This document shows positions 11,259 to 61,104 of a stretch of 64,000 nucleotides of DNA, in pieces (the stretch's first letter is position 1; each line of letters starts with the position of its first letter). The stretch spans positions 1,860,001 to 1,924,000 of the forward strand of contig NZ_CP051299.1 in NCBI RefSeq assembly GCF_012530535.1. The letters are read 5' to 3'. This stretch comes from Microcella flavibacter. Lineage in GTDB: Bacteria; Actinomycetota; Actinomycetes; Actinomycetales; Microbacteriaceae. Both the position numbers and the translations under genes were made by a program. The notes below the pieces were generated by a model. It saw only the letters and a program-made list of their open reading frames with translations. It made no database searches and was not told the DNA's origin.

Positions 11259-11334
11259 CCAGGTCGGCCCGGATCGGCAGCGGTCCGCCGTGCCGCTCAG
11301 CCAATGGACGCGGGCACCTCGTAGTCGGTTGCGG

Positions 11335-11637: not shown

Positions 11638-11711
11638 CGTCGGTTCCTCTCGGCGTTCGTCACCGACGACGTGCGCCGACAGCCCTGGGGGATCAGCGGC
11701 GCGGAGGTGCG

Positions 11712-12113
11712 TTATGAACCGTCGCTGGCGTCGTCCACGATGAGCCCAGCCTCGACCAGCGCCGCTCGCACCGCCTTGCGGTCTACGCCCATCCGGCGAC
11801 CGATCGCCCGCATCGAGACACCCGCCCGCGTGAGCCGCACGGACTCCGCCTTCTCGTCGAGGCCCAGCCCCGGTCGACGACTCGGCACGTTCCGGCGCCG
11901 GAGGTGGGAGAACACCGTGGCACGATGGATTCCGTACCGCTCCGCGAGGTGCTTGACGCCCATCCCGGCCAGGTAGTCGCCGATGAGAGCGTCGACCTCA
12001 GCAGCGGTCAGAAAAGTTTGAGCCGTCTCGACAGTCCTTACGACTGGCCCCCGATCGTCCCTCGGAGCGCTACTCAGGGGACGCCGCGAGACCTCGTACA
12101 CACCACGATTCAT
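11712..12113 (-). CDS. Small helix-turn-helix protein (resolvase/Hin-like DNA-binding domains)
   Basis: The 133-residue protein starts MNRGVYEVSRRPLSS. It has two helix-turn-helix units: VKHLAERYGIHRATVFSHLR (residues 53-72) and VSMRAIGRRMGVDRKAVRAA (99-118). These are like the DNA-binding tails of serine recombinases, but no catalytic resolvase domain is present. Such stand-alone HTH proteins are common in Microbacteriaceae accessory DNA. It marks the end of the accessory block, just before the conserved ligD gene. It could regulate the downstream hypothetical or be a recombinase remnant. Confidence 0.7.
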   Translation of the reverse strand: MNRGVYEVSRRPLSSAPRDDRGPVVRTVETAQTFLTAAEVDALIGDYLAGMGVKHLAERYGIHRATVFSHLRRRNVPSRRPGLGLDEKAESVRLTRAGVSMRAIGRRMGVDRKAVRAALVEAGLIVDDASDGS

Positions 12114-12214
12114 GCGGTTGACTAGGGTCTTCGTCTTCGGGGAGGAGTTGCCGAACGTGCTACCCAGGCACCCGTATTGCTGGTTCGTCGCACGAGTCGA
12201 GACGCACCAGGTCG

Positions 12215-12238
12215 AAGGCCCCGCTCCGGCGGGGCCTT
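12215..12238 (-). terminator. Terminator hairpin downstream of ligD
   Basis: AAGGCCCCGC and GCGGGGCCTT form a perfect 10-bp stem with a TCCG loop, 49 nt past the ligD stop on the minus strand. Confidence 0.7.
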
Positions 12239-12239
12239 C

Positions 12240-12299
12240 GTCATTCCCGCACAGCGTCATTCCCGAACGGTCATTCCCGAACGGCGTCATTCCCGTACG
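12240..12299. repeat. Short tandem repeat, four copies of GTCATTCCCGNACG
   Basis: Copies start at 12240, 12256, 12270 and 12286 (spacing 16, 14, 16 nt). The last overlaps the ligD stop codon. Nothing similar was seen elsewhere in the window. Confidence 0.75.
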
Positions 12300-14731: not shown

Positions 14732-14818
14732 CCCCCCATCGTGGTCGGGAACCGTTCGGACGACCACCCGCTTGCGCAAGGGGGTACCGGTGTGCCCGCC
14801 GCGGCGGGACGATGAGGC

Positions 14819-15721
14819 ATGCGATCCATCTGGAAAGGCGCGATCACCTTCGGCCTCGTCAACGTGCCCGTGAAGGTCTACAGCGCGACCGAGGACCACG
14901 ACCTGCCGCTGCATCAGGTGCACGACAAGGACGGCGGGCGCATCCGGTACCAGCGGCGGTGCGAGATCTGCGGCGCCATCGTCCAGTACGCCGACATCGA
15001 CAAGGCCTTCGACGACGGCGACCGCACGGTCGTGCTCACCGATGACGACCTCGCGACGCTGCCCTCGGAGCGCAGCAAGGAGATCGACGTCGTCGAGTTC
15101 GTGCCGACCGCGCAGATCGACCCGATCATGCTCGACCGCAGCTACTTCCTCGAGCCCGACTCGTCCTCCCCCAAGGCCTACGTGCTGCTGCGCCGCACCC
15201 TCGAGGAGACCGACCGCACGGCGATCGTGCTGTTCTCGCTGCGGCAGAAGACCCGCCTCGCCGCCCTGCGGGTGCGCGGCGACGTGCTCATGCTGCAGAC
15301 GCTGCTCTGGGACGATGAGGTGCGCGAGGCGCGGTTCCCCTCCCTCGACGCCCCGGTGCGCATCGGCGCGAAGGAGCTGGAGATGAGCCGCTCGCTCATC
15401 GACAGCTTCGCCGCCGACTTCAGCCCCGAGAACTTCACCGACGAGTACCAGGAGCAGCTGCGCACCCTCATCGAGGCGAAGCTCGAGCAGGGCGACGCGC
15501 TCAGCACCGCCGAGACCTTCGGCGAGGACGAGGAGGACGGCGAGAAGGAGGGCGAGGGTGGCGAGGTGCTGAGCCTCATGGATGCTCTCAAGCGCAGCAT
15601 CGCCGAGAACCGGTCGAGCGCGAAGAAGCCGGCGGCCAATGAGTCGACCCCGACGAAGGCAGCCCCGACGAAGAAGCCCGCCGCGAAGAAGAAGGCGGCC
15701 TCGAAGAAGAAGGCGAGCTGA
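14819..15721 (+). CDS. ku: Ku DNA-end-binding protein
   Basis: The 300-residue bacterial Ku begins MRSIWKGAITFGLVNVPVKV, the family hallmark, and continues through the core beta-barrel. Residues about 268-300 form a Lys/Ala/Pro-rich tail (KKPAANES, TKKPAAKKKA). Such tails bind DNA and let Ku thread inward along it. An acidic segment (EDEEDGEKEGEGGE) precedes the tail. Ku recruits LigD to broken ends; the ligD gene is adjacent and divergent, so the two-component end-joining pathway is complete here. Alternative starts are unlikely because the first residues are conserved. Confidence 0.97.
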   Translation: MRSIWKGAITFGLVNVPVKVYSATEDHDLPLHQVHDKDGGRIRYQRRCEICGAIVQYADIDKAFDDGDRTVVLTDDDLATLPSERSKEIDVVEFVPTAQIDPIMLDRSYFLEPDSSSPKAYVLLRRTLEETDRTAIVLFSLRQKTRLAALRVRGDVLMLQTLLWDDEVREARFPSLDAPVRIGAKELEMSRSLIDSFAADFSPENFTDEYQEQLRTLIEAKLEQGDALSTAETFGEDEEDGEKEGEGGEVLSLMDALKRSIAENRSSAKKPAANESTPTKAAPTKKPAAKKKAASKKKAS

Positions 15722-36553: not shown

Positions 36554-37534
36554 ATGCCCACCATCGGGTTCCACGCATCGCACGAGCAGGTCGAGCCGCG
36601 AGCGCTGCTCGAAGCCGTCGCGCTCGCCCAGGAGATCGGCTTCACCGAGGCGATGGGCAGCGACCACTTCGCGCCGTGGAGCGAGGAGCAGGGCGAGTCG
36701 GCCTTCTCGTTCGCCTGGATGGGCGCGGCCCTCGAACGGGCGCGCGGGATGCGCATCGGCCAGGTGCACGCCCCCGGCCAGCGCATCCACCCCGCCATCA
36801 GCGCCCAGGCGATCGCGACGCTCGAGGCGATGAATCCCGGCCGGTACTGGGTGGCGCTCGGCAGCGGCGAGAACCTCAACGAGCGCATCACCGGCGAGCC
36901 GTGGCCGGCGAAGCCCGTGCGCAACGCGCGGCTGCGCGAGTGCGTCCACGTCATCCGCGCGCTGCTCGCCGGCGAGGAGGTCGACCACCACGGCCTCGTG
37001 CGCGTCGACCGCGCCCGCCTCTGGACCCGCCCCGCGACGCCGCCGCCGCTCTACGCGACCGCGGTGAGCCCCGAGACCGCGGCCTGGGCGGCCGAGTGGG
37101 CCGACGGCCTCGTCACCGTCAACCAGCCCGGCGACGCGCTGCGCCGGGTCTCCGACGCCTACCGCGACGCCGGCGGGCGCGGGCCCGTCCACGTGCAGGT
37201 GCACGTCGCCTGGGCCGAGACGGAGGAGCGCGCCCTGCAGGAGGCCTTCGAGCAGTGGCGCACCAACGTGTTCCCCCCTCCCCTGTGCTGGGATCTCGAC
37301 TCGCCGCGCGCCTTCGCGCTCGCCGCGGCGCACGTGCGGCCCGACGACGTGCGCGACTCGGTCGTCGTGAGCGACAGCCCCGCCGCGATCGTCGACGCCA
37401 TCGGCGGGATGCTCGACCAGGGCTTCGACGGCGCCTACGTGCACCACGTGCCGGTCGAGCAGCGCGCGTTCCTGGAGCGGGTCGCGCCGAGCATCCTCGC
37501 CGCCTTCTCGGATTCGGCGCGGGTGCCCGCATGA
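36554..37534 (+). CDS. Luciferase-like (LLM class) flavin/F420-type oxidoreductase
   Basis: The 326-residue TIM-barrel protein reads MPTIGFHASHEQVEPRALLE and MGSDHFAPWSEEQGESAFSF, then ALGSGENLNERITGEPWPAK and ATAVSPETAAWAAEWADGL. This resembles the F420-dependent glucose-6-phosphate dehydrogenase-like branch, especially the LLM group that lacks clear F420 evidence. AAGGAGG lies 4 nt before the ATG, with TAGGGT (36526-36531) upstream. Its stop overlaps the ATG of the amylase-like gene (ATGA), hence coupling. Cofactor (FMN or F420) and substrate are open. Confidence 0.88.
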   Translation: MPTIGFHASHEQVEPRALLEAVALAQEIGFTEAMGSDHFAPWSEEQGESAFSFAWMGAALERARGMRIGQVHAPGQRIHPAISAQAIATLEAMNPGRYWVALGSGENLNERITGEPWPAKPVRNARLRECVHVIRALLAGEEVDHHGLVRVDRARLWTRPATPPPLYATAVSPETAAWAAEWADGLVTVNQPGDALRRVSDAYRDAGGRGPVHVQVHVAWAETEERALQEAFEQWRTNVFPPPLCWDLDSPRAFALAAAHVRPDDVRDSVVVSDSPAAIVDAIGGMLDQGFDGAYVHHVPVEQRAFLERVAPSILAAFSDSARVPA

Positions 37535-47113: not shown

Positions 47114-48493
47114 TCAGCCCGCGGCGACCGCCGTGAAGGCCTCGTCGTAGGCGACGAGCGCCCGCTCGACCTCGGCCGGCGTGACGATGCACGGCGGCAC
47201 GACGTGGATGCGGTTGTCGGCGGCGAAGGGCAGCACGTGCCGGGCCATGAGCTCGGCCTTGAGCCGGCCGATGACGTCGGCGCCGACGGGGGTGCGGCTC
47301 TCGCGGTCGGTGACGAGGTCGAGCGCCCAGAAGACGCCCATGCCGCGCACCTCGCCGATCATGGGGTGCTTCTCGGCGAGGGCGCGCAGGCCCGGTCCGA
47401 GATGCTGCTCGCCGATCATCCTCGCGTTCTCGACGATGCCCTCCTCGGTCATCGCGTCGAGCGCGGCGACGATCGAGGCCATCGCGAGCGGGTGGCCCGA
47501 GTAGGTGAGCCCGCCGGGGAAGACGCGCTCATCGAAGGCCGCGGCGATGGACGGGCTGATGACGACGCCGCCCGCGGGCACGTAGCCGGAGTTGACGCCC
47601 TTGGCGAAGGCGATGAGGTCGGGGGTGGCGCGGGAGGGGTTGATGTCGGCGCCCTGCCAGGCGAACCACTCCCCCGTGCGGCCGAAGCCGGCCATGACCT
47701 CGTCGGCGATCCAGACGATGCCGTACCGGTCGCACAGCTCGCGCACGCCCTCGAGGTAGCCGACGGGCGGCGTCAGCACGCCCGCGGTGCCGGGCACCGA
47801 CTCGAGCAGGATGGCGGCGATCGTGTCGGCGCCCTCGGCCTGGATGGTGCGCTCGAGGCTCTTCAGGGCGCGCGCGCACTCCTGCTCGGGCGTCTCGCTG
47901 TGGAACTCGCTGCGGTAGAGGAACGGGCCGAAGACGTGCACGTGCCCGAAGGCGTACTCGTTGGGGATGCGGCGCCAGTCGCCGGTGGAGGCGATCGCCG
48001 CACCCGTGTTGCCGTGGTAGCTGCGGTAGGTCGAGATGACCTTGTGGCGGTGGGTGGTCAGACGCGCCATGCGGATGGCGTTCTCGATCGCGTCGGCGCC
48101 GCCGTTCGTGAAGAAGACCTTCGCGAAGCCGGGGCCGGCCTTCTCGACGATGCGCTTCGCGGCCTCGCCGCGGGCGAGGCTGGCGTGCGAGGGCGCGACC
48201 GTCGCGAGCTCGGCGGCCTGGTGCTGGATGGCCGCGACGACCTTCGGGTGCGAGTGGCCGATGTTCGTGTTGACGAGCTGGCTCGAGAAGTCGAGGAAGC
48301 GCTCGCCGTCGTAGTTCCAGACCTCGCAGCCCGACGCGCCGGCGACGACGAAGGGCTTCAGGGCGCCCTGGGCGCTCCAGGAGTGGAAGACGAACTCGCG
48401 ATCGAGATCGTAGGCGCGGGCGCCGTCGGCGGGGTCGAGCGCCGGGGCGGGGGCGGTGTCGACGGGGTGCGACCGGTTCAGCGTGTCGGTCAT
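47114..48493 (-). CDS. Class III aminotransferase (omega-amino acid/beta-alanine type)
   Basis: The 459-residue PLP enzyme starts at ATG 48493 with GAGGAA upstream. It has VNTNIGHSHPKVVAAIQHQA near residue 75, FFTNGGADAIENAIRMARL, WIADEVMAGFGRTGEWFAW (the Asp binding the PLP nitrogen) and FAKGVNSGYVPAGG (catalytic Lys). Class III enzymes of this shape transfer the amino group of omega-amino acids such as beta-alanine or beta-aminoisobutyrate to pyruvate or 2-oxoglutarate. Those are exactly the products of the upstream dihydropyrimidinase and carbamoyl amidohydrolase, so it likely makes malonate semialdehyde; this link is inference from context. Confidence 0.92.
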   Translation of the reverse strand: MTDTLNRSHPVDTAPAPALDPADGARAYDLDREFVFHSWSAQGALKPFVVAGASGCEVWNYDGERFLDFSSQLVNTNIGHSHPKVVAAIQHQAAELATVAPSHASLARGEAAKRIVEKAGPGFAKVFFTNGGADAIENAIRMARLTTHRHKVISTYRSYHGNTGAAIASTGDWRRIPNEYAFGHVHVFGPFLYRSEFHSETPEQECARALKSLERTIQAEGADTIAAILLESVPGTAGVLTPPVGYLEGVRELCDRYGIVWIADEVMAGFGRTGEWFAWQGADINPSRATPDLIAFAKGVNSGYVPAGGVVISPSIAAAFDERVFPGGLTYSGHPLAMASIVAALDAMTEEGIVENARMIGEQHLGPGLRALAEKHPMIGEVRGMGVFWALDLVTDRESRTPVGADVIGRLKAELMARHVLPFAADNRIHVVPPCIVTPAEVERALVAYDEAFTAVAAG

Positions 48494-48600
48494 CGGTATC
48501 GGTTCCTCGTGTCGGGGCGCGGGCGCCGCTGGCGTGAGGAGCGCCGCGCGATGAGGGTGCGACGCTCCGGGGCGCGGCGGGCCGGCCCCTGTTCCGCTCA

Positions 48601-49818
48601 TTATGACCCGTGCGCGAGCAAACCCTGAGCGCGCAGAAGTTGCGGGATGCGCTCGCGGAACGGGAAGAAGCCGCGCGTGGCGTGCGGCCAGGCTCGGGCA
48701 TCCCACTCGCGGTGCAGGGAGACGAGGGGCAGGCCCTCCGACGCGAGCTCGGCGGCCGCCCGGTCGAGCGCCGTGCGCGCGGCGCCGACGGGCGCGAGCG
48801 GCATGACGATCGCGTCGAGCTCGTGCCGCGCGGCCCAGGCGGCGATGGCGGGCGCGGTGAGGTCGCCGAGGCTCTCGGCGGGGGCGTCATGGATGCTCGC
48901 CGCGCGGTCGAGGCCGTCGGCGAGGGCATCCCGCTGGAAGTCGGCGACCATCGCGGCGGTGCCCTGCGCGGTGCGATCCCGCCCGCGCGCCGGGGCCGCG
49001 ACGGCCGCGATGCGCTCGACGCCCGGCAGCGTCTCGGGCGCGAGGTCGTCGTCGTGCAGCAGCAGCCCGATCCGCCCGGGCGGCACGGCGGCGGCCGGAG
49101 CGAGGGGCGCCGGGGTCGGCACCGGCTCGTCCTCCTCGAGCGCGGGCGCGACGCTCGCGAGGCCGCGAGGCCGGAAGCGGCCCTCGGTGTAGCGGGCGAT
49201 GTTGTCGGCGGTGGCGAGGTAGGTCTTGCCGCGCGTCTGCAGTCCGGCGACCCAGCGCCAGCTGAGCGTGTTGGAGGCGGGATCGCCGTCGAGCAGGTGG
49301 CGCAGGAAGAACTCGGCGCCGAGCTGCCAGGGCAGGCGCAGCGTGAAGATCCAGATGCTCGCGAACCACATGCGGGCGTGGTTGTGCAGGTACCCGGTGT
49401 CGACGAGCTCGCGGGCCCAGTCGTCGAAGCCCTCGATGCCGGCGCGGCCCTCGACGGCGGCGGCGAGCAGGGCCTCGCCCTCCTCCCCCAGCGACTCGCG
49501 GGCGGCGAGGGCGCCGTGCTCGTAGCGGGTGAAGACGCTCGGGCGCTGCTCGAGCCAGCCCTTCCAGTAGGTGCGCCAGTAGACCTCCTGCACGAACGTG
49601 GAGGCCGCCTGCAGCGAGTGCGTCGCGAGCACGTGCCGCACGACCTCCTCCTCGGTGACGAGGCGGTGGCGGAGGTACGGCGAGAGCTGCGAGACGGCGG
49701 GCTGCTCGTGCGGGCCGCGGTCGTGGTTGCGGTCGGCGGCGTAGCGGCGCCCGGCGAGCGGCGCGAAGTCGTCGAGGCGGGCCAGACCGGCCGCGCGGGA
49801 GGCGGGGGCGAACGTCAT
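48601..49818 (-). CDS. Photolyase/cryptochrome-like FAD-binding protein with rearranged domains
   Basis: The 405-residue protein starts with the photolyase FAD-binding helical domain: LSPYLRHRLVTEEEVVRHVL, STFVQEVYWRTYWKGWLEQR, then LVDTGYLHNHARMWFASIWI and LSWRWVAGLQTRGKTYLATA. A Pro/Ala linker (about 235-255) leads to an alpha/beta domain (GRIGLLLHDDDLAPET to LVSLHREWDARAWPH). Ordinary photolyases have the alpha/beta antenna domain first. Here FAD binding comes first, so the protein is permuted or of a separate family. It lies between the transporter and aminotransferase genes, 43 nt after the binding-protein stop. Repair, light sensing or redox catalysis are all possible. Confidence 0.82.
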   Translation of the reverse strand: MTFAPASRAAGLARLDDFAPLAGRRYAADRNHDRGPHEQPAVSQLSPYLRHRLVTEEEVVRHVLATHSLQAASTFVQEVYWRTYWKGWLEQRPSVFTRYEHGALAARESLGEEGEALLAAAVEGRAGIEGFDDWARELVDTGYLHNHARMWFASIWIFTLRLPWQLGAEFFLRHLLDGDPASNTLSWRWVAGLQTRGKTYLATADNIARYTEGRFRPRGLASVAPALEEDEPVPTPAPLAPAAAVPPGRIGLLLHDDDLAPETLPGVERIAAVAAPARGRDRTAQGTAAMVADFQRDALADGLDRAASIHDAPAESLGDLTAPAIAAWAARHELDAIVMPLAPVGAARTALDRAAAELASEGLPLVSLHREWDARAWPHATRGFFPFRERIPQLLRAQGLLAHGS

Positions 49819-49861
49819 GCCCCCAGCCTGCGCGGCCGGTCTGGGAGAACCCGCGGGGCGG

Positions 49862-51013
49862 CTAGTTGCCGCCCTCGAGCAGCTCGACGTCGATCGGCGA
49901 GAAGCTCTCGCCGTAGATGTCGACGCCCTCCTCCTCGAGCTCGGCGAGCGCCTGCTCGATGTACTCGTTCGTCCAGACGCCCTCGGCGGGCTCCTCGGTG
50001 ATGAGGCTCGCGCCCGACTCGTTGACGGCGCTCAGCGCGGCGTCGACGGTGGCCTGGTACGCGCCCTCGTCGATGAAGCCGATGCCGTTCGGGGCCGGCC
50101 AGATGAGCTTGTTGGTCTCGTTGACCATCCACAGCTCGTGGCTCGGGCCCCAGCCGCTGCCGGCGTCGATCGTGATCTGCGAGGCCTCCTCCGGGTTCTC
50201 GGCCGCGTAGACCCAGCCCTTGATGACGGCCTTGAGGAAGGCGACCGTCGTCTCCTGGTACTCCTCGTCGCTCTCGAGGCGCTCGGTGTCGGCCCAGATC
50301 GCGTCCTGCAGCATCGCGCCGACGGTGTCCTCGTAGCTGATGACGTTGAGGTCGTCCGCGGTGTAGAGCTCGCCCGTCTCGGGGTTCACCGTCTCGAGCA
50401 CCTGCGCGTACTCGTTGTACGTCATCGCCTGCGCGGCGTCGATGTCGCCGCTGAGGAAGGCGTTCATGTTGAAGTCCTGCGTGATGATCTCGACGGTGGA
50501 CGAGTCGAGGCCCTCCTCAGCCATGGCCGCGAAGATCTCCCACTCGTTGCCGAAGCCCCACGAGCCGATCTTCTTGCCCTCGAAGTCGGCGACCGACTCG
50601 ATGCCGCTGTCGGCCCACGCCACCTGCAGCGTGCCCGAGCGCTGGAAGATCTGCGCGATGTTGGTGACGTTCGCGCCGGCCTCGATCGAGCCGAGCACCT
50701 TCGGCACCCAGGCGATCGCGTAGTCGACGTCGCCGTTCGAGAGAGCGTCCTGCGGCACGATGTCGCCGCCCGAGGGGATGATCTCCACATCCAGGCCCGC
50801 CTCCTCGAAGTAGCCCTGCTCGGCGGCGGCGAAGTAGCCGGCGAACTGGCCCTGCGGCAGCCACTGCAGCTGCAGCGAGACGGGCGTGAGCTCGTCGCCG
50901 CCCCCGCCGTCGGAGGTGCCGGGGTCACCGCCGGCGCAGGCGGTGAGGGCGAGCGCGGCGGTGAGGCCGAGCGCGCTGAACGTCGCGAGGCGACGGGGGG
51001 TGCTGTGCGTCAT
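49862..51013 (-). CDS. ABC transporter substrate-binding lipoprotein, NMT1/THI5 type
   Basis: The 383-residue protein has a signal peptide and a lipobox-type ALTACAGGD (Cys near 26), so it is membrane-anchored outside. TPVSLQLQWLPQGQFAGYFA and AAEQGYFEEAGLDVEIIPSG are the opening of NMT1/THI5-like binding proteins, which carry pyrimidines, riboflavin or related ring compounds. It goes with the two permeases and ATPase encoded upstream in the operon, 65 nt away. Given the dihydropyrimidinase context, a pyrimidine, hydantoin or related base is the likely ligand. Confidence 0.93.
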   Translation of the reverse strand: MTHSTPRRLATFSALGLTAALALTACAGGDPGTSDGGGGDELTPVSLQLQWLPQGQFAGYFAAAEQGYFEEAGLDVEIIPSGGDIVPQDALSNGDVDYAIAWVPKVLGSIEAGANVTNIAQIFQRSGTLQVAWADSGIESVADFEGKKIGSWGFGNEWEIFAAMAEEGLDSSTVEIITQDFNMNAFLSGDIDAAQAMTYNEYAQVLETVNPETGELYTADDLNVISYEDTVGAMLQDAIWADTERLESDEEYQETTVAFLKAVIKGWVYAAENPEEASQITIDAGSGWGPSHELWMVNETNKLIWPAPNGIGFIDEGAYQATVDAALSAVNESGASLITEEPAEGVWTNEYIEQALAELEEEGVDIYGESFSPIDVELLEGGN

Positions 51014-51078
51014 GGCTGTCCTTTCGTGGTGCAGGGATGGGATGCGGTGCGGTGGGTGCGGGAGGAGGGGTTCGGGGG

Positions 51079-51906
51079 TCAGCGCCGTCGCGAGACGGCG
51101 CTCTCGAGGGCGAGGGTGACGAGGTAGAAGGCGAGGCCGAGCAGGATGGCGGCGACCACGTAGGCCCAGGCGCGCGGGTACGCGCTCGAGGCCGCCGAGG
51201 TCGAGATGAGCCCGCCGAGCCCGCCGCGCGGGCCGCCGAAGTACTCGGCGACGAGCGCCGAGATGACGGCGAGCGACGAGGCGAGGCGGATGCCCGTGAA
51301 CGTGTACGGCGCCGCCGTGCGCAGGGTGATCGTGCGCATGATCTGCCAGCGGCTCGCCGCGTAGGTGCGCATGAGGTCGCGGTGCACGGGCTGGGTCTGC
51401 CGCAGGCCCCGCGCCGTGGTGATGAACACCGGCACGAAGGCCGCGAGCCCGGCGATGAGCTGGCGGCCGACCTGCGAGTCGGCGCCGAACATCGTGTTGA
51501 GCACCGGGGCGAGGGCGACGATCGGGATGACCGCGAGCGCCGCGACGACGGGCGCGAGCATGCCGTCCACCGGCCGGGCGCTCGAGGCGGCGAGGGCGGC
51601 GAGCACCCCGAGCAGGGATCCGAGCACGAGCCCGAGCAGCGCGTTGAGCCCCGTGATGCCCGCCGCGCTCAGCATGGTCGGGGCGAACTCGATGATCTGC
51701 TCGCCGATGGCGGCCGGGCTCGGCAGCAGGTAGGCCTCGACGAGGCCCGAGGCGGTGAGCAGCTGCCAGGCGCCGATCACCACGACGCCGAGCACGATCG
51801 GCGCGAGGATGCGCTGCGCGGCGCTCGGCGGGGCATCCCGCATCGGGGCGGACGCGGCGCCCGCCGCAGCCGCAGTCGACCGGCGGGGCGCGGCCGTCGC
51901 CGTCAT
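51079..51906 (-). CDS. ABC transporter permease (SsuC/ThiX type), first
   Basis: The 275-residue membrane protein has six hydrophobic segments and the permease loop RTYAASRWQIMRTITLRTAA with a typical EAA-like arrangement, followed by PYTFTGIRLASSLAVISALV and AEYFGG. The ATG overlaps the ATPase stop (51903-51906). It pairs with a second permease (52739-53662), giving a heterodimeric channel. Confidence 0.93.
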   Translation of the reverse strand: MTATAAPRRSTAAAAGAASAPMRDAPPSAAQRILAPIVLGVVVIGAWQLLTASGLVEAYLLPSPAAIGEQIIEFAPTMLSAAGITGLNALLGLVLGSLLGVLAALAASSARPVDGMLAPVVAALAVIPIVALAPVLNTMFGADSQVGRQLIAGLAAFVPVFITTARGLRQTQPVHRDLMRTYAASRWQIMRTITLRTAAPYTFTGIRLASSLAVISALVAEYFGGPRGGLGGLISTSAASSAYPRAWAYVVAAILLGLAFYLVTLALESAVSRRR

Positions 51907-52742
51907 CGGGTCTCCACCCCGCGGGCGCCCGCGACCGGGCTGCCGTGCAGGGCCTCGCGCACGGAGGTGATCATCTCGAAGAAGGCGCCGTCCTCGCGCA
52001 GGTCGTCGGCGCGGTCGGCGGTGCGGCCGAGGTTCATCGTGACGACGTCGGCGATGCGGCCCGGGCGGGGCGACATGACGACGACGCGGTCGCTGAGGTA
52101 CACGGCCTCGGGGATCGAGTGGGTCACGAAGACGACGGCGGCGCCCGTGTCGGCGGCGATGCGCAGCAGCTCGGTCTGCATGTACTCGCGCGTCATCTCG
52201 TCGAGGGCACCGAAGGGCTCGTCCATGAGCAGCAGGGCGGGCTTCTTGGCGAGCGCGCGGGCGATCGCGACGCGCTGCTGCATGCCGCCCGAGAGCTGAT
52301 CGGGGAACCGATCGGCGAAGTCGCCGAGGCCGACGAGCGCGACGAGCTGCTCGACGCGGGCGGTGCGCTCGGCCGGGGCGACGCCGGCGAGCTCGAGCGG
52401 CAGCGCGATGTTGCCGGCCACCGTGCGCCAGGGCAGCAGCCCCGCCTGCTGGAAGGCGATGCCGTACTTCTGGTCGAGCCGCGCCTGGTGCGCGGAGGTG
52501 CCGAAGACCTCGACGGTGCCCGAGCTCGGGGTGTCGAGGTCGGCGATGAGGCGCAGCAGCGTCGACTTGCCGCAGCCGGAGGGGCCGATGAGCGAGACGA
52601 ACTCGCCGGGCGCGACCGCGAGGTCGATGCCCGTGAGCGCCGTCACCTCGCCCGCCTTCGTGGAGAAGATCTTGTCGACGCCGGTGACGGCGACGGCGGG
52701 GGCGGCGACGGCGGTGCTCGTCGCGGGGGTCGTGGAGGTCAT
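51903..52742 (-). CDS. ABC transporter ATP-binding protein
   Basis: The 279-residue ATPase starts MTSTTPATSTAVAAPAVAVT. It has Walker A GPSGCGKST near residue 52, Q-loop GIAFQQAGLLPWRTVAGNIA, signature LSGGMQQRVAIARALAKKPA and Walker B LLMDEPFGALDEM. It is of the nitrate/sulfonate/taurine (SsuB/TauB) family. It overlaps both permease genes by four bases, so stoichiometric translation is likely. Confidence 0.95.
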   Translation of the reverse strand: MTSTTPATSTAVAAPAVAVTGVDKIFSTKAGEVTALTGIDLAVAPGEFVSLIGPSGCGKSTLLRLIADLDTPSSGTVEVFGTSAHQARLDQKYGIAFQQAGLLPWRTVAGNIALPLELAGVAPAERTARVEQLVALVGLGDFADRFPDQLSGGMQQRVAIARALAKKPALLLMDEPFGALDEMTREYMQTELLRIAADTGAAVVFVTHSIPEAVYLSDRVVVMSPRPGRIADVVTMNLGRTADRADDLREDGAFFEMITSVREALHGSPVAGARGVETR

Positions 52743-53662
52743 GCCTGCTCCTCGGAGCGTCGGTAGGTGCGGAGGATGATGCCGAGCAGCGCGACCGAGC
52801 CGGCCGCGATGAGCCCGAGGGCGACGGCGCCCGCGATGGGCGCCCAGGCCTTCGCCGGGTCGCCGGAGGCCTGCCCGGCGTACTGGATGACGAGGCGGCC
52901 GATGCCGCCCTGCAGGCCCGTCGAGACCTCGGCGACGACGGCGCCGACGACGGCGTTCGCGGCCGCGAGACGGAGGGCCGGCAGGAGGTAGGGCACGGCG
53001 GCGGGGAAGCGGAGGCGCGTGAGCGTCTGCCACCAGCCCACCGAGTAGGTGTGCATGAGCTCGAGATGGATGCGGTCGGGTGCCTGCAGCCCGCGCAGCG
53101 CGCCGACCGCGACGGGGAAGAAGGCCAGGTAGCTCGCGATCACCGCGACCGACATCCAGTCCTGCCACTCGAAGGCGCCGATCTCGATGCGCGAGCCCCA
53201 GCTGCGCACGAGCGGGGCGAAGGCGATGAGCGGCACCGTCTGACTCAGCACGATCCACGGCAGCATCGCCGACTCGGCGAGCCGCCAGCGCTGCATGACG
53301 AGGGCGAGGCCGATGCCGACGGCGACTCCGACCACCCAGCCCGCGGCCGCGATGCCGAGGGTCAGCGAGGCCGCGAGCACGATCTCGAGCCAGAGCGGGT
53401 CGGCGCCCTCGGCGCGCGTCACCGGCTCGAGCATCCTGCCCGCCATCTCCCACAGGTGCGGCATGGCGAGATCGCTCGTGCGCGGCAGCACGCGGATGCC
53501 CGCCACGACCACGCCGTCGGCGGGGCCGAGCGCCTTGTACGCCTCCCACACGATGCCCAGCGCGACGAGCCCCACGAGGCCCCAGCCCCACACCCGCAGC
53601 CGCGCGCCGCGATCGCGCGCCCGACGACGGGGCGGGGTGAGCGCGATCGCGGCGTCGGTCAC
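52739..53662 (-). CDS. ABC transporter permease, second
   Basis: The 307-residue permease starts at GTG 53662 overlapping the LLM stop. After a basic N-terminus ([13 protein letters not shown]) come six membrane helices. The EAA-like loop is HTYSVGWWQTLTRLRFPAAV, then PYLLPALRLAAANAVVGAVV and AEVSTG. It has a longer extracytoplasmic loop (residues about 45-85) than its partner. Both permeases belong to the SsuC-like BPD_transp_1 family. Confidence 0.93.
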   Translation of the reverse strand: MTDAAIALTPPRRRARDRGARLRVWGWGLVGLVALGIVWEAYKALGPADGVVVAGIRVLPRTSDLAMPHLWEMAGRMLEPVTRAEGADPLWLEIVLAASLTLGIAAAGWVVGVAVGIGLALVMQRWRLAESAMLPWIVLSQTVPLIAFAPLVRSWGSRIEIGAFEWQDWMSVAVIASYLAFFPVAVGALRGLQAPDRIHLELMHTYSVGWWQTLTRLRFPAAVPYLLPALRLAAANAVVGAVVAEVSTGLQGGIGRLVIQYAGQASGDPAKAWAPIAGAVALGLIAAGSVALLGIILRTYRRSEEQA

Positions 53663-54675
53663 GCCTTCGCCCGCTTCGGCGCGTTGATCGCGGGAATGAT
53701 GCGCTCGCCGTAGACGCGGAGGGTCTCCTCCTTGTTGTCGTGCTGCAGGTAGCCGGCGAACTGGTCGACGCCGAGCTCGCGCAGGGCCTCGAGCTTCTCG
53801 ATGTGCTGCTCCGCGGTGCCGAGCACGCAGAAGCGGTCGACGATCTCGTCGGGCACGAAGTCGACGTGGTCGTTGCCGGCCTTGCCGTGGCTGTTGTAGT
53901 CGTAGCCCTCGCGCCCGGCGATGTAGTCGGTGAGCGCCGTCGGCACCTCGCTGCCGGCGCCGTGCTTGGCGACGATGTCGGCGACGTGGTTGCCGACCAT
54001 CCCGCCGAACCAGCGGCACTGGTCGCGCATGTGCTCCCAGTCGTCGCCGACGTACATCGGCGCGGCCACGCAGAACTTCACGTCCATCGGGTCGCGCCCG
54101 GCGTTGTCGGCGGCCGTGCGCACGGTCTCGATCATCCACTTCGCGATGTCGAGGTCGGCCAGCTGCAGGATGAAGCCGTCGCCGACCTCGCCCGTGAGCT
54201 TGAGCGCGAGCGGGCCGTAGGCGGCCACCCACATCTCGAGCTCGCTGCCCGTGCTCCACGGCAGCTGCAGCGTGGCGCCGTGGTACTCGACCGCGCGGGA
54301 GTTCGCGAGCTCGCGGATCACGTGGATCGACTCGCGCAGCTCGGCGAGCGTCGTCGGCTTGCCGTTCGTGACGCGCACGGCCGAGTCGCCGCGGCCGATG
54401 CCGCAGACCGTGCGGTTGCCGTACATCTCGTTGAGGGTGGCGAAGGTGCTCGCCGTCACCGTCCAGTCGCGCGTGGCGGGGTTCGTGACGAAGGGCCCCA
54501 CCTTCACGCGGTGCGTCTCGGCGAGGATCGCCGAGTAGATGACGTAGGGCTCCTGCCAGAGGATGTGCGAGTCGAAGGTCCACACGTGGCTGAAGCCGTG
54601 CTGCTCGGCGAGCTTGGCGAGGTGCACCGTGCGCGAGGCGGGCGGGTTGGTCTGGATGACTGCTCCGAAGTCCAT
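53659..54675 (-). CDS. Luciferase-like (F420-type) oxidoreductase in pyrimidine operon
   Basis: The 338-residue LLM protein begins MDFGAVIQTNPPASRTVHLA. It has FSHVWTFDSHILWQEPYVIY, GPFVTNPATRDWTVTASTFA, NRTVCGIGRGDSAVRVTNGK and AYGPLALKLTGEVGDGFILQ. This corresponds to a recognised LLM subfamily (TIGR03842 type) annotated as F420-dependent. It stands between dihydropyrimidinase and the transporter, where a pyrimidine-reducing or related enzyme would be expected; no dihydropyrimidine dehydrogenase is in the cluster. F420 biosynthesis genes lie within 9 kb. F420 use and pyrimidine as substrate are inferences. Confidence 0.92.
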   Translation of the reverse strand: MDFGAVIQTNPPASRTVHLAKLAEQHGFSHVWTFDSHILWQEPYVIYSAILAETHRVKVGPFVTNPATRDWTVTASTFATLNEMYGNRTVCGIGRGDSAVRVTNGKPTTLAELRESIHVIRELANSRAVEYHGATLQLPWSTGSELEMWVAAYGPLALKLTGEVGDGFILQLADLDIAKWMIETVRTAADNAGRDPMDVKFCVAAPMYVGDDWEHMRDQCRWFGGMVGNHVADIVAKHGAGSEVPTALTDYIAGREGYDYNSHGKAGNDHVDFVPDEIVDRFCVLGTAEQHIEKLEALRELGVDQFAGYLQHDNKEETLRVYGERIIPAINAPKRAKA

Positions 54676-54689
54676 GGCTGCTCCCTCCC

Positions 54690-56150
54690 CTACACCAGGT
54701 ACTGCGACAGGCCGCGGCGCAGGTACTGGCCGTGGCCGGCCCGCCCGTGGAACGCGTCGTCGCGGATGACGATCGAGCCGCGGCTGATGACCGTGTCGAC
54801 CTTGCCATCGATCTCGAAGCCCTCCCAGGCCGCGTGATCCATGTTCATGTGGTGCTTCCTGCCGGTCGGCCGGCCCTCGGCGTCGACGGGCATGCCGATG
54901 CTCGTATGGCCGTCCGGGTCGTAGATCACGACGTCGGCGTCGGCCCCCGGGGCGATGACGCCCTTGCGGCCGTAGAGCCCGAACATGCGCGCCGGGGTCG
55001 TGCTCGTGAGCTCGACCCAGCGCTCGAGGGTGATCTCGCCCGTGACGACGCCCTGGTACATGAGATCCATGCGGTGCTCGACCGAGCCGATGCCGTTCGG
55101 GATCTTCGAGAAGTCGCCGAGCCCGAGCTCCTTCTGGCCCTTCATGCAGAAGGGGCAGTGGTCGGTCGAGACCATCTGGATGTCGTTCGTGCGCAGGCTG
55201 CGCCACATGTGGTGCTGGTGGCCCTCCTCCTTCGACCGCAGCGGTGTCGAGCAGACCCACTTGGCGCCCTCGAAGGCGCCGAACTCGTCACTGGAAGCTC
55301 CGAGCTGGTCCTCGAGCGAGAGGTACAGGTACTGCGGGCACGTCTCGCCGAACACGTTCTGCCCGACGTCGCGCGCGGCCGCGAGCTGCTCGACCGCCTG
55401 CTTGGCGCTCACGTGCACGACGTAGAGCGGGGCGCCGGTGAGGTTCGCGAGCATGATCGCGCGGTGCGTCGCCTCCTCCTCCATCTGCCAGGCGCGCGCG
55501 ACCCCGTGGTAGTACGGGTCGGTCTTGCCCTGGGCGAGCAGCTGCTCGACGAGCACGTCGATGGCGGGGCCGTTCTCGGCGTGCATCATCGTCATGAGCC
55601 CGGTGTCGGCGGCGACCTGCATGGCGCGCAGGATCTGCGCGTCGTCGCTGTAGAAGACGCCCGGGTAGGCCATGAAGAGCTTGTAGCTCGTGATGCCCTC
55701 GTCGATGAGCTTCGGCAGCGCCGCGAGCGAGTCGGCGTCGACCCCGCCGACGATCTGGTGGAACCCGTAGTCGACGGCCGCGTTGCCCGCGGCCTTCTCG
55801 TGCCACGCGGCGAGCCCGTCGAACACCTTCTGGCCCGCGGTCTGCACCGCGAAGTCGATGATGCTCGTCGTGCCGCCCCAGGCGGCCGCGATCGTGCCGG
55901 TCTCGAAGGTGTCGATCGCGGCGGTGCCGCCGAAGGGCAGCTCCATGTGGGTGTGGGCGTCGATGCCGCCGGGGATCACGTACTTGCCCGTCGCGTCGAT
56001 GACGGTGTCGACGCTCGCGGTCAGATCGTGCCCGAGCAGGGTCGAGCCCGGCTCGAGCACGGCGACGATGCGCTCGCCGTCGATGAGGACGTCGGCGGCC
56101 GTGCGCCCGGTGGCGCTCACGACCGTTCCGCCCGTGATGAGGATGGTCAT
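54690..56150 (-). CDS. hydA: Dihydropyrimidinase/hydantoinase
   Basis: The 486-residue amidohydrolase has VIPGGIDAHTHMELPFGGTA (zinc ligands His-x-His), the carboxylated Lys in GITSYKLFMAYPGVFYS, MMHAENG (His), VVHVSAKQAVEQLAAARD (His) and MVSTDHCPFCMKGQKELGLG (Asp). Length and motifs fit D-hydantoinase/dihydropyrimidinase, which opens dihydrouracil, dihydrothymine or hydantoins to N-carbamoyl amino acids. It lies 28 nt after the carbamoyl amidohydrolase and 14 nt before the LLM gene. Confidence 0.95.
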   Translation of the reverse strand: MTILITGGTVVSATGRTAADVLIDGERIVAVLEPGSTLLGHDLTASVDTVIDATGKYVIPGGIDAHTHMELPFGGTAAIDTFETGTIAAAWGGTTSIIDFAVQTAGQKVFDGLAAWHEKAAGNAAVDYGFHQIVGGVDADSLAALPKLIDEGITSYKLFMAYPGVFYSDDAQILRAMQVAADTGLMTMMHAENGPAIDVLVEQLLAQGKTDPYYHGVARAWQMEEEATHRAIMLANLTGAPLYVVHVSAKQAVEQLAAARDVGQNVFGETCPQYLYLSLEDQLGASSDEFGAFEGAKWVCSTPLRSKEEGHQHHMWRSLRTNDIQMVSTDHCPFCMKGQKELGLGDFSKIPNGIGSVEHRMDLMYQGVVTGEITLERWVELTSTTPARMFGLYGRKGVIAPGADADVVIYDPDGHTSIGMPVDAEGRPTGRKHHMNMDHAAWEGFEIDGKVDTVISRGSIVIRDDAFHGRAGHGQYLRRGLSQYLV

Positions 56151-56178
56151 CGGGATTCTCCTGAGATCGTCGGTCGGG

Positions 56179-57027
56179 CTACGGGCGCGTGGTCGCGGTG
56201 TAGGAGTCGGGTCGACGATCCCGGTAGAACTGCCAGTTGTTGCGCACCTCGCGGATGAGGTCGAGGTCGAGGTCGCGCGTCACCGTCTCGGACTGGTCCT
56301 GGCTCGCGACCTCGCCGACGTAGTTGCCGCGCGGGTCGACGAAGTAGCTCGAGCCGTAGAAGGTGACGGCGAGGTCGCCGAACTCGTCGCTCTCGGTGCC
56401 GATGCGGTTGTTCGCCCCGATGTAGTACTGGTTCGCGGCGGCCGCGGCGGGCTGCTCGAGCTCCCACAGGCGGTTCGAGAGGCCGGGCTTCGTGGCGCTC
56501 GGGTTGAAGACGATCTCGGCGCCGTTCAGGCCCAGCTCGCGCCAGCCCTCGGGGAAGTGCCGGTCGTAGCAGATGTAGACGCCCACCTTGCCGACGGCCG
56601 TGTCGAACACGGGGTAGCCGAGGTTGCCGGGGCGGAAGTAGAACTTCTCCCAGAACCGGTCGAGGTTCGGGATGTGGTGCTTGCGGTACTTGCCGAGGAT
56701 CGTGCCGTCGGCATCCACCACCACGGCGGTGTTGTAGTAGACGCCGGGCATGTCCTCCTCGTAGATGGGCAGGACGATGACCATCTTGAGTTCCTTCGCG
56801 AGCGCCGCGAAGCGCTGCACGATGGGCCCGTCGGCGGGTTCGGCGTAGTCGTAGTACTTGGCGTCCTCGATGATGCCGAAGTAGGGGCCGTAGAAGAGCT
56901 CCTGGAAGCAGATGATCTGCGCCCCGTCGGCCGCGGCATCGCGGGCGAGCTGCTCGTGCTTGTCGAGCATCGACTCCTTGTCGCCCGTCCAGGTGGTCTG
57001 AGTGATCGCGGCGCGAACCGTGGTCAT
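56179..57027 (-). CDS. Nitrilase-superfamily N-carbamoyl-beta-alanine amidohydrolase
   Basis: The 282-residue protein starts at ATG 57027, which has AGGGGA 8 nt upstream; an ATG two codons earlier is too close to that site. The Glu-Lys-Cys triad is in ICFQELFYGPYFGI, KYRKHHIPNLDRFW and VGVYICYDRHFPEGWRELGL. These are close to beta-ureidopropionases, which release ammonia, CO2 and beta-amino acid from N-carbamoyl-beta-alanine. It is the first gene of the operon continuing to the aminotransferase and diverges from fbiA. Confidence 0.93.
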   Translation of the reverse strand: MTTVRAAITQTTWTGDKESMLDKHEQLARDAAADGAQIICFQELFYGPYFGIIEDAKYYDYAEPADGPIVQRFAALAKELKMVIVLPIYEEDMPGVYYNTAVVVDADGTILGKYRKHHIPNLDRFWEKFYFRPGNLGYPVFDTAVGKVGVYICYDRHFPEGWRELGLNGAEIVFNPSATKPGLSNRLWELEQPAAAAANQYYIGANNRIGTESDEFGDLAVTFYGSSYFVDPRGNYVGEVASQDQSETVTRDLDLDLIREVRNNWQFYRDRRPDSYTATTRP

Positions 57028-57179
57028 GTGCATGTTCCCCTTTTCATCGTTGAACTGGGGTCAGTGTGCGAGAGCGCCGTTTCCGGCTCGTTTCGCCCAA
57101 TGACAGGTGGGTAAAACATAGGCCTCATCTGCGCATTCCTGCACCATCCCGCACGCATGAGCGCGATGCCCGGCGCGGC

Positions 57180-57191: not shown

Positions 57192-58205
57192 ATGAGGATC
57201 GTGGTGCTCGCAGGCGGGGTCGGAGGCGCGCGGTTCGTGCGCGGCGTGCGCGAGGCGGTGCGCCGGGCGGCCCCGGGAGCGCCCCTCGAGGGCGCCGCGA
57301 TCGACGTCATCGTGAACACCGGGGACGACTGGTGGCTCGCCGGATTGCGCATCACCCCCGACCTCGACTCGATGCTCTACACGCTCAGCGGGCAGAACGA
57401 CGAGGTGCGGGGCTGGGGGCGGGTCGGCGAGAGCGAGCGCGTCTCGGCCGAGCTGCAGGAGTACGGCGTGACCCCGCCCTGGTTCACGCTCGGCGACCTC
57501 GACCTCGGCACCCACATCGCCCGCAGCGCCTGGCTGCGCGAGGGCGCAACGCCCTCCGAGGTCGTGCGGCGTCTGCAGCAGCGCTGGGAGCTCGGCGTCA
57601 CCCTGCATCCCGCGACCGACGACGAGGTCGACACCCACGTCGTCATCGCGGGCGATGCCGGCGCGGGCTCGGGCGAGCGCGAGCTGCACTTCCAGGAGTG
57701 GTGGACCCGCTACCGGGCCTCCCTGCCGGCGGCTCGTTTCGTGCAGCACGGCATCGAGAGCGCCGCGCCCTCCCCCGGCGCCCTGGATGCCCTGCTCGAG
57801 GCCGACCTCGTGCTCGTCGCCCCCTCCAACCCCGTCGTGTCGATCGGCACCGTGCTCGCCGTGCCCGGCATGCGCGACGCCATCACCGCCGAGCGCGCGC
57901 CCGTCGTCGGCGTCTCGCCGATCATCGCGGGCGAGGCCGTGCGCGGCATGGCCGACGCCTGCCTCAGCGCCATCGGCGTCGCGACCGACGCGGGCGCCGT
58001 CGCCCGCCACTACGGGCTGCGCCGCGACGGCGGACTGCTCGACGGCTGGCTCGTGGCCGAGGAGGACGCGGCGCTCGTCGCCCCGCTCGACGACGAGGGC
58101 TTCGCCGTGCGGGCCGTGCCGCTGTGGATGCGCGACCTCGACACCGCCGCCGCGCTCGCCGAGGAGGCCGTCGCGCTCGGGCTCGCGCTGCGCGACGAGG
58201 GCTGA
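57192..58205 (+). CDS. fbiA: 2-phospho-L-lactate (phosphoenolpyruvate) transferase, F420 biosynthesis
   Basis: The 337-residue protein starts MRIVVLAGGVGGARFVRGVR, the CofD/FbiA nucleotide-binding motif. VNTGDDWWLAGLRITPDLDS, DLDLGTHIARSAWLREGATP and APSNPVVSIGTVLAVPGMRD follow. FbiA joins FO to the phosphoenolpyruvyl or lactyl moiety delivered by FbiD, giving (dehydro-)F420-0. It lies upstream of fbiC on the same strand. FbiB, the glutamate ligase, is not in the window. Confidence 0.95.
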   Translation: MRIVVLAGGVGGARFVRGVREAVRRAAPGAPLEGAAIDVIVNTGDDWWLAGLRITPDLDSMLYTLSGQNDEVRGWGRVGESERVSAELQEYGVTPPWFTLGDLDLGTHIARSAWLREGATPSEVVRRLQQRWELGVTLHPATDDEVDTHVVIAGDAGAGSGERELHFQEWWTRYRASLPAARFVQHGIESAAPSPGALDALLEADLVLVAPSNPVVSIGTVLAVPGMRDAITAERAPVVGVSPIIAGEAVRGMADACLSAIGVATDAGAVARHYGLRRDGGLLDGWLVAEEDAALVAPLDDEGFAVRAVPLWMRDLDTAAALAEEAVALGLALRDEG

Positions 58206-58422: not shown

Positions 58423-61104
58423 GTGACCGACTCGCCCGTCCCTCTGCCCACGCCGACCGTCGCCCCCGCCGCGCCGACGCCGGAGGCGGGCTTCGTGCCC
58501 ACCGCCTCGGCGATCTCGCGCGCCCTCAAGCGCGCCGAGTCGGGCGTGACCCTCGACGCGACCGAGGCCGAGACGCTGCTGCACGCGCGCCACGACGACC
58601 TCGACCGTCTGCTGACGGTCGCGAGCCGCGTGCGGGATGCCGGGCTCGAGCGCGCCGGACGCCCCGGGGTCATCACGTACTCGCGCAAGGTGTTCATCCC
58701 GCTCACCCACCTCTGCCGCGACCGCTGCCACTACTGCGTGTTCGTCAAGACCCCGAACCAGCTCGAGAAGGAGGGCAAGGCGCCGTTCCTCAGCCCCGAC
58801 GAGGTGCTCGAGGTCGCGCGCCAGGGCGCGGCGATGGGCTGCAAGGAGGCGCTGTTCACCCTCGGCGACCGCCCCGAGGACCGCTGGCCGGCCGCCCGCG
58901 AGTGGCTCGACGCGCACGGCTACGACTCGACGATCGACTACCTGCGGGCGATGTCGATCCGCATCCTCGAGGAGACCGGTCTGCTGCCCCACCTCAACCC
59001 CGGCGTCATGACGTGGGAGGAGATCCAGCGCCTCAAGCCCGTCGCCCCGAGCATGGGCATGATGCTCGAGACCACCTCGACGCGCCTGTTCGAGACCCGC
59101 GGGCTCGCCCACTTCGGCAGCCCCGACAAGGATCCGGCGCTGCGACTGCGCGTGCTCGAGGACGCGGGGCGCAGCAACGTGCCCTTCACCTCCGGCCTGC
59201 TGCTGGGCATCGGCGAGACCTACGCCGAGCGCGTCGACGGGATGTTCGCCCTGCGCGCCGTGGCCCGCCGCCACGGTTCGCTGCAGGAGGTCATCATCCA
59301 GAACTTCCGCGCGAAGCCGCGCACGGCGATGCGCGGCGCCGACGACCTGGAGCTGCAGGAGTACATCGCCTCGGTCGCCGTCGCCAAGCTCGTGATGGGC
59401 CCCGGCGCGCGCATCCAGGCCCCGCCGAACCTCACCGACGCCGAGGAGCTCGGCCTGCTGATCCGGGCCGGCATCGACGACTGGGGCGGCGTGAGCCCGC
59501 TGACCCCCGATCATGTGAACCCCGAGCGGCCGTGGCCGCAGATCGACGAGCTCGCCCGGTTGACCGCGCTCTCGGGCTACGCGCTGCGCGAGCGCCTCAC
59601 CGCGCACCCGCACTTCGTGCGCGCCGAGGAGCCGTGGATCGACCCGCGCGTGCTGCCGCACGTGCGCGCGCTCGCCGGGCCCGACGGCCTGGCCGACGAG
59701 TCGGCGATGCCGGTCGGCCTGCCCTGGCAGGAGCCCGATCCCGACTGGGCGGCGACGGGCGGCACGGGCCGCACCGATCTGCATGTCGAGATCGACACCG
59801 TCGGGCGCACGACGCAGACGCGCGGCGACTTCGAGGACGTCTACGGCGACTGGGCCGAGCTGCGCGAGACCGTCGGCGACACACGCCGGTCCGCGGCAGG
59901 GTTCGCGGTGAGCGCGGGCGTGCGCGCGGTGCTGCAGCGGGCAGAGGATGCTCCCGCCGGGCTCTCCGACGCCGACTACCTGACCCTGCTCGACGCCGAG
60001 GGCGACGACCTCGACGCCCTCGCCGCGCTCGCCGACTCGGTGCGGCGCGACACGGTCGGAGACCGCGTCGGGTTCGTCGTGAACCGCAACATCAACTTCA
60101 CCAACGTCTGCTACACCGGCTGCCGCTTCTGCGCCTTCGCGCAGCGACGCACCGACGCCGACGCCTTCACTCTCTCCATGAAGCAGGTGGGCGACCGCGT
60201 CGACGAGGCGTGGAACCTGGGCGCCACGGAGATCTGCATGCAGGGCGGCATCCACCCGGATCTGCCGGGCACCGCGTACTTCGACCTCGCGCGCGAGGTC
60301 AAGAAGCGTCGGCCGGGCATCCACCTGCACGCGTTCAGCCCGATGGAGATCGTCAACGGCGCGACCCGCACGGGGCTGTCGTTCGAGGAGTTCCTGCGCG
60401 AGGCGCAGCTCGCCGGGCTCGACACGATTCCGGGCACGGCGGCGGAGATCCTCGACGACGAGGTGCGCTGGGTGCTCACGAAGGGCAAGCTGCCGGCGGC
60501 GACGTGGCTCGACATCGTGGGCACGGCGCACCGGCTGGGCATCCGCTCGTCGTCGACGATGATGTACGGCCACGTCGACAACCCGGCGCACTGGGTCGGC
60601 CACCTGCGCACGCTGTCGGCGCTGCAGGACGACACCGGCGGGTTCACCGAGTTCGTGCTGCTGCCGTTCGTGCACGCGAACTCGCCCGTGTACCTCGCGG
60701 GCGTGGCCCGTCCGGGCCCGACCGCGCAGGAGAACCGGGCGATCCACGCGGTCGCGCGGCTCATGCTGCACGAACGCATCGACCACATCCAGACCTCGTG
60801 GGTGAAGCTCGGCACCGAGGGCACGCAGATGATGCTGCGCGGCGGGGCCGACGACGTCGGCGGCACCCTCATGGAGGAGACGATCAGCCGCATGGCGGGC
60901 GCGGACAACGGCTCGGAGAAGACCGTGGCCGAGCTCGAGGAGCTCGTCGGCGGGATCGGCCGCACCTCCTGGCAGCGCACGACGACGTACGGCGAGCCGG
61001 ACGCCGAGCGGCTCGCGGCGGCGCAGGCGCACCGCACCGAGGGGTACGCGGCGACGGGTCGGCGGCTCGCGCTGTCGATCGCCGAGGTTCGCGCGGGGGC
61101 CTGA
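58423..61104 (+). CDS. fbiC: Bifunctional FO synthase FbiC
   Basis: The 893-residue protein fuses two radical SAM enzymes. The CofG half has the cluster motif CRDRCHYC (Cys98, Cys102, Cys105). The CofH half has CYTGCRFC (Cys563, Cys567, Cys570). Together they build FO (8-hydroxy-5-deazaflavin) from tyrosine and a flavin precursor. The GTG at 58423 is chosen because CGGAG lies 6 nt before it; the frame is open 36 codons upstream without similarity. TAGGGT at 58282-58287 may be its -10. FO is also an antenna pigment of some photolyases, two relatives of which are in this window. Confidence 0.97.

Follow-up and report, generated by a model that had tools for sequence, protein, structure and literature searches.

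Does a luciferase-like oxidoreductase take the place of dihydropyrimidine dehydrogenase (DPD) in actinobacteria that have the later enzymes of pyrimidine breakdown but no recognizable first one? The question is raised by a locus of Microcella flavibacter (Microbacteriaceae), which we analyzed within a window of 64,000 nucleotides (the whole stretch of DNA studied, bases 1860001-1924000 of the single-contig 2.62 Mb genome; positions below are those of the window). Here nine genes, all open frames on the minus strand and read in one direction, run from 57033 down to 47114, and among them a luciferase-like (LLM) protein of family TIGR03842 stands in an operon with a dihydropyrimidinase, a carbamoylase, an ABC importer, and an aminotransferase. 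On the evidence of gene content, conservation, and co-occurrence, we propose that TIGR03842 probably reduces uracil and thymine with F420H2 and replaces DPD, to which it is not homologous.

The LLM gene (53659-54675, minus strand) scores 590 bits against TIGR03842 (cut-off, 295) and is preceded by a dihydropyrimidinase (54690-56150, minus strand; TIGR02033, 521 bits; cut-off, 393) and, ahead of it, by a carbon-nitrogen hydrolase (56179-57033, minus strand; PF00795, 224 bits) predicted to be an N-carbamoyl-beta-alanine amidohydrolase carrying out the beta-ureidopropionase step. The last gene of the cluster encodes a class III omega-aminotransferase (47114-48493, minus strand; PRK06062, 712 bits; cut-off, 472), a predicted beta-alanine/beta-aminoisobutyrate transaminase, and a methylmalonate-semialdehyde dehydrogenase (MMSDH; 692 bits; cut-off, 448.5) is encoded elsewhere in the genome. 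The original prediction held that the classical DPD is missing, and a search of the genome for PydA/DPD and Rut genes bears this out: the genome has no match for DPD. The DHO_dh family, which spans PyrD and PreA and was shown to match a PreA, found a single gene, read as class 2 PyrD, and the PreA model had no match at E 1e-80. The RutA profile (TIGR03612) gave nine weak matches, none of them above cut-off and none of them the TIGR03842 gene. Two F420 synthesis genes adjoin the operon on the plus strand, so the organism has key genes for making this cofactor: cofD/fbiA (57192-58205 with an assumed start at ATG 57192; TIGR01819, 309 bits; cut-off, 257), divergent from the operon, and fbiC (cofGH; 58423-61104 with an assumed start at GTG 58423; NF006687, 1445 bits; cut-off, 1018). 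An Fgd encoded in the genome (434 bits; cut-off, 420) would supply the reduction to F420H2.

If the LLM protein belongs to this pathway, its gene should travel with those of the other steps, and it does so across the phylum. A scan of the genome collection confirmed at least 580 relatives, of which the best 80 loci were kept; by LLM protein, the closest named relatives are Microcella alkalica and other Microbacteriaceae. When loci cut off by the end of a contig are scored as misses, the dihydropyrimidinase gene lies directly before the LLM gene in 80 of these 80 nearest TIGR03842 loci, a carbamoylase is present in 77, and an aminotransferase and a binding protein are each present in 58; the first three of these counts lead us to conclude that the gene order is not due to chance. 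A wider sample comprised 40 loci, one each from 40 of the 62 TIGR03842 genomes found in the phylum (two from the taxonomic family of the window), and there the fetched stretch held a dihydropyrimidinase in 32, a carbamoylase in 38, and an aminotransferase in 28. The carbamoylase was of the nitrilase type in 25 of these loci and of the unrelated Zn type in 13, never both, although one Zn-type match (locus L126), at a distance of 9 kb, may have no connection with the LLM gene. A transporter was found in 29 of the 40, divided between NCS1 symporters (14) and THI5-type ABC binding proteins (15). TIGR03842 thus stays with dihydropyrimidinase and carbamoylase throughout the phylum, whichever type of carbamoylase or transporter is used, and its retention while the flanking steps are swapped for unrelated proteins is the behavior expected of a pathway enzyme. 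Over the combined set of 125 loci (the 80 nearest, the 40 of the wide sample, and five plasmid loci, one of which lacks TIGR03842), none had a PreA or PreT match at E 1e-20. An MMSDH match was present in 41 of them (36 at 569 bits or more), often right after the aminotransferase, and a CoA-acylating MMSDH lies between the dihydropyrimidinase and the LLM gene in several loci (among them L128, 710 bits, and L149, 695 bits; cut-off, 448.5).

The same association is visible at the level of whole genomes. TIGR03842 was present in 62 of 296 actinobacterial genomes sampled, and a dihydropyrimidinase (E ≤1e-90) was found in 59 of these 62, compared to 31 of the 234 genomes without TIGR03842 (Fisher 3.5e-35). 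CofD (TIGR01819, E ≤1e-55) was likewise found in 57 of the 62, compared to 104 of the 234 (Fisher 1.7e-12). Because the genomes are related, these Fisher values overstate independence and are descriptive only. TIGR01819 served as the F420 marker after PF01933 was rejected, since the latter also matches Escherichia coli and other controls that presumably make no F420 and whose matches we take to be YvcK-type homologues; among 14 controls, TIGR01819 matched three archaea only. PreA was found in 2 of the 296 genomes and in none of the 62 with TIGR03842. One of these two (G208) has the canonical arrangement, with a PreT-like gene (Fer4_20, 116 bits), PreA (692 bits; cut-off, 335), an M20 hydrolase, and a dihydropyrimidinase in one run. 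The other PreA match (genome G191, contig C37, 2341-3522) carries an in-frame TAG.

Plasmids of Rhodobacterales place the two kinds of reductase in comparable surroundings. Leisingera caerulea and L. aquaemixtae have plasmids on which a run consisting of an NCS1 symporter, hydA, a Zn hydrolase, an aminotransferase, and pntBA is divergent from cofG, cofH, cofD, cofC, cofE, npdG, and a TIGR03842 LLM gene, after which comes a TetR regulator whose L. caerulea copy has a YcdC-type C-terminal domain. On a Paracoccus alcaliphilus plasmid, cofGHDCE-npdG-LLM precedes the genes of a THI5-type importer; no dihydropyrimidinase was found in the 31 kb examined. In both genera the LLM gene is the last of the F420 synthesis run, and in our check of F420 genes outside Actinomycetota, which covered plasmid records, all 11 alphaproteobacterial records with the LLM gene match CofE (10 from the two Leisingera species and 1 from Paracoccus). 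Plasmids of Qingshengfaniella and Roseinatronobacter instead carry preA, a preceding oxidoreductase gene (taken as preT), a regulator, a Zn hydrolase, a dihydropyrimidinase, and an importer, with no LLM gene in the stretch shown. Their proteins are 72 to 74% (hydA), 69 to 74% (Zn hydrolase), and 47 to 52% (regulator) identical to those of Leisingera, so closely similar downstream enzymes pair either with preA or with an F420 operon and the LLM gene. Among five neighborhoods of relatives of the Leisingera dihydropyrimidinase, drawn from 79 matched records, preA is present in two and neither preA nor the LLM gene in three (Thalassospira, Sulfitobacter, and Aminobacter). In a tree of LLM proteins, the two alphaproteobacterial proteins are joined at 100/100, with a weak link to one actinobacterial group (93/55).

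Several side observations concern plasmids. Leisingera and Paracoccus both have a DUF1330 gene in the vicinity of the F420/LLM cassette (L121, 183-476; L120, 9083-9373). The Thalassospira marina plasmid (L175) has an aminotransferase, MMSDH, nitrilase, importer, and dihydropyrimidinase, with neither type of reductase nearby. Plasmid pW2_73_1 of Agrobacterium rubi (L164) carries a different F420 cassette at 621-14859, composed of cofD, cofC, a long gene labeled cofH that matches FbiC, cofE, and npdG, interspersed with an LLM oxidoreductase, two aminotransferases, and 5-oxoprolinase-like genes; it is possibly a second catabolic pathway with its own F420 supply.

The protein itself agrees with a role for F420. 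Its profile matched 12 solved sequences at E 1e-10, of which 10 are labeled F420-dependent or Mer; the others are 9hav, whose title calls it an F420-dependent enzyme, and a luciferase (8cbb). The eight best fold matches of an AlphaFold2 model are all Mer chains; the model has a mean pLDDT of 83, and with loops 37-40 and 97-102 below 50, the pocket was judged by alignment. By both sequence profile and fold, the family is thus closest to F420-dependent Mer among solved structures. Passages of a 2024 study of jMer (PMC11094777) describe Glu6 as the catalytic acid, a contact that Asp96 makes, in a modeled complex, with the pterin's pyrimidine ring, and a cis-peptide Gly61-Val62 beneath F420. Across 44 family sequences, the Asp96 position is aspartate in all 44 and the residue after the non-prolyl cis bond is valine in 43, but the Glu6 position holds valine (21), threonine (18), cysteine (4), or a gap (1). 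Residues D97, R101, Q171, and H230 are invariant in all 44; the alignment sets N178 of the solved chain opposite the invariant Q171 and does not fix the counterpart of jMer Gln178. The LLM protein also falls below both Mer cut-offs (142 versus 276 bits and 138.5 versus 348.7 bits), and we rejected its identification as a Mer on the basis of these scores and the replacement of the catalytic glutamate described in those passages, although the Asp96 and cis-bond features are kept. The original prediction had put an F420-linked LLM protein in DPD's place, and the kinship to Mer, like the position of the gene at the end of the F420 synthesis run on the Leisingera and Paracoccus plasmids, argues for that assignment.

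Taken in sequence, the encoded steps would form a complete route. Uracil or thymine would enter through the THI5-type ABC importer (or an NCS1 symporter in other lineages), and the TIGR03842 protein would use a hydride from F420H2 to reduce the 5,6 double bond, yielding dihydrouracil or dihydrothymine. The dihydropyrimidinase would then open the ring, the carbamoylase would release beta-alanine or beta-aminoisobutyrate with CO2 and NH3, the aminotransferase would convert these to malonate or methylmalonate semialdehyde, and MMSDH would turn the semialdehyde into an acyl-CoA. The source of F420H2 would be Fgd in this organism and, in Rhodobacterales, NpdG drawing on NADPH. Breakdown of uracil and thymine is known to end in the transamination of beta-alanine and beta-aminoisobutyrate to these semialdehydes. 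The scheme is like the reductive pyrimidine (Pyd) pathway with PreT/PreA in its dihydropyrimidinase, carbamoylase, importer, aminotransferase, and MMSDH, and unlike it in that a luciferase-like protein takes the PreT/PreA slot, accompanied in Rhodobacterales by F420 synthesis genes. We infer the substrate of the LLM protein, its direction and F420 dependence, and the specificity of the transporter from this setting. As to direction, either reduction of uracil and thymine or oxidation of the dihydro form had been predicted; the presence of npdG and a transhydrogenase with the Leisingera cluster disfavors oxidation and suggests that NADPH gives electrons to F420, which passes them to the ring, so that the reductive half of that prediction is the one we would retain.

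Other assignments of the LLM protein have to be weighed against this one. It could be an F420-dependent reductase of a different pyrimidine-type ring, such as a substituted uracil, a cytosine derivative, or a thiamine-type pyrimidine, which would feed a substituted dihydropyrimidine to the hydrolase. Dihydropyrimidinases have broad specificity, the PF09084 THI5-type binding protein could hint at a thiamine-type pyrimidine, and our choice of substrate is drawn from gene context, but some loci have NCS1 nucleobase symporters in place of the ABC importer, MMSDH and the omega-aminotransferase fit unsubstituted or 5-methyl products by the generally known pathway, and the closely similar hydA and Zn hydrolase occur in preA operons; we regard a different ring as unlikely. 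The reliance on context also leaves a small chance, and a very unlikely one in our judgment, that the LLM protein acts on a downstream aldehyde or other metabolite and that the uracil reductase is encoded elsewhere, but the genome offers no DPD match for that role and MMSDH already covers the aldehyde step.

The original prediction left the operon as one for pyrimidines or hydantoins. An operon for hydantoin or another cyclic ureide, with the LLM protein performing a side oxidation, would accord with the name D-hydantoinase carried by TIGR02033 and with the dihydropyrimidinase genes of Sulfitobacter and Aminobacter plasmids, which adjoin N-carbamoyl-D-amino-acid hydrolases in neighborhoods that look like hydantoin or D-amino-acid clusters. 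Hydantoin utilization clusters typically include a hydantoin racemase and a stereospecific carbamoylase. Hydantoins, however, yield alpha-amino acids, which need neither an omega-aminotransferase nor MMSDH; because these two enzymes fit beta-alanine and beta-aminoisobutyrate, and with preA taking the place of the LLM gene in related operons, the hydantoin alternative seems to us slimmer still, and the uracil/thymine one is kept. Least credible of all is a RutA-type FMN-dependent oxygenase acting on uracil: RutA is also luciferase-like, but the LLM protein is absent from the RutA-profile matches of its genome, oxidation of the ring would by general knowledge of Rut chemistry skip the dihydropyrimidinase, and the LLM gene is linked to F420 synthesis genes.

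A number of observations weigh against assigning TIGR03842 to F420H2-dependent reduction of uracil and thymine. The best score of the Microcella carbamoylase is to N-carbamoylputrescine amidase (AguB), at 255 bits against a cut-off of 410, and no named subfamily scored above its cut-off. The fetched stretch lacked a dihydropyrimidinase in 8 of the 40 wide-sample loci, and the enzyme is missing from 3 of the 62 TIGR03842 genomes (estimated completeness, 67%, 87%, and 100%). CofD (TIGR01819) is missing from five of the 62. A full fbiC is present in two of these five and only a short piece of the gene in a third (G119, completeness 96%); the last two, with completeness values of 81% and 90%, lack it. 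An F420 synthesis gene lies near the operon in 37 of the 80 near loci (cofD in 33) and in the fetched stretch of none of the other 40, and we therefore discounted such nearness as evidence, since it is limited to near relatives; in two genomes of the same family (G225 and G268), cofD lies 11 to 13 kb from the operon. NpdG in the Microcella genome is below cut-off (60 versus 150 bits), so the argument for the reductive direction rests on Rhodobacterales and on Fgd. The best match of the L. caerulea regulator is RutR, at 194 bits and below the cut-off of 368. Of the 31 genomes with a dihydropyrimidinase and no TIGR03842, 30 also lack PreA; dihydropyrimidinase alone therefore implies neither reductase, and those of the 30 genomes serve other ends or pair with another kind of reductase. 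Finally, in G208, with its canonical run, an LLM gene of a different type lies about 2 kb downstream from the dihydropyrimidinase gene (L173, 4776-5855, minus strand), best matched by TIGR03560 at 161 bits, below the cut-off of 231.

The rest of the cluster consists of the importer and one further gene, all on the minus strand. Permease 1 (52739-53662; PF00528, 66 bits) begins with a GTG that overlaps the LLM stop by 4 nucleotides and is followed by the ATPase (51903-52742; PF00005, 121 bits), permease 2 (51079-51906; PF00528, 81 bits), and the THI5/NMT1-type substrate-binding protein (49862-51013; PF09084, 137 bits). With the listed starts, 4-nucleotide overlaps occur at three junctions (LLM/permease, permease/ATPase, and ATPase/permease), consistent with the single-direction cluster with several such overlaps that had been described; that description omitted a ninth gene, which encodes a photolyase-like FAD_binding_7 protein (48601-49818; PF03441, 75.5 bits over profile positions 1-127 of 203, a partial domain). 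This gene is present in only 3 of the 80 related loci, and we therefore rejected it as a member of the pathway; it is a lineage-specific insertion and a passenger of the operon. In the three loci, the protein has 62 to 69% identity, and its gene precedes the aminotransferase in L040 and L043; the L042 locus is without an aminotransferase. The M. flavibacter genome has 12 LLM matches. The window holds a second LLM gene (36581-37411, plus strand), best matched by TIGR03885 (flavin_revert, named FMN-dependent), with 372 bits over a trimmed stretch against a cut-off of 399.

TIGR03842 (NCBIfam F420_CPS_4043) is a hypothetical equivalog to which NCBIfam of June 2026 gives no specific function. Among the matches listed in the open-access literature, none described an F420-dependent reductase of uracil, although a subscription journal may hold such a report, and the word "uracil" is absent from the main text of a 2021 F420 review (PMC8498797). 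The closest precedent, described in sections of a 2025 study (PMC12507026), is an LLM protein of Chloroflexota predicted to replace a PydA homologue and to reduce a uracil-type ring for the use of uric acid. As set out in those sections, that case differs from ours in substrate, phylum, and pathway and resembles it in having an LLM protein in a PydA-type slot; both roles are predictions.

More broadly, we think it likely that TIGR03842 is a second, non-homologous DPD that serves as the main reductive entry into pyrimidine breakdown in Actinomycetota and that it moved to Rhodobacterales plasmids together with a whole F420 operon. If the F420 operon and TIGR03842 moved as one package, the recipient cell may make F420 chiefly to consume pyrimidines. 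Should the assignment be true, the missing first enzyme of pyrimidine breakdown would be identified for actinobacteria that lack DPD, a large family of F420 enzymes with no assigned role would acquire a function, and nucleobase catabolism would join the known roles of F420. In these organisms, a simple deazaflavin enzyme with a TIM barrel would have taken over from an iron-sulfur flavoprotein system. More speculatively, if the enzyme accepts 5-fluorouracil, it could have relevance to the microbial inactivation of that drug.

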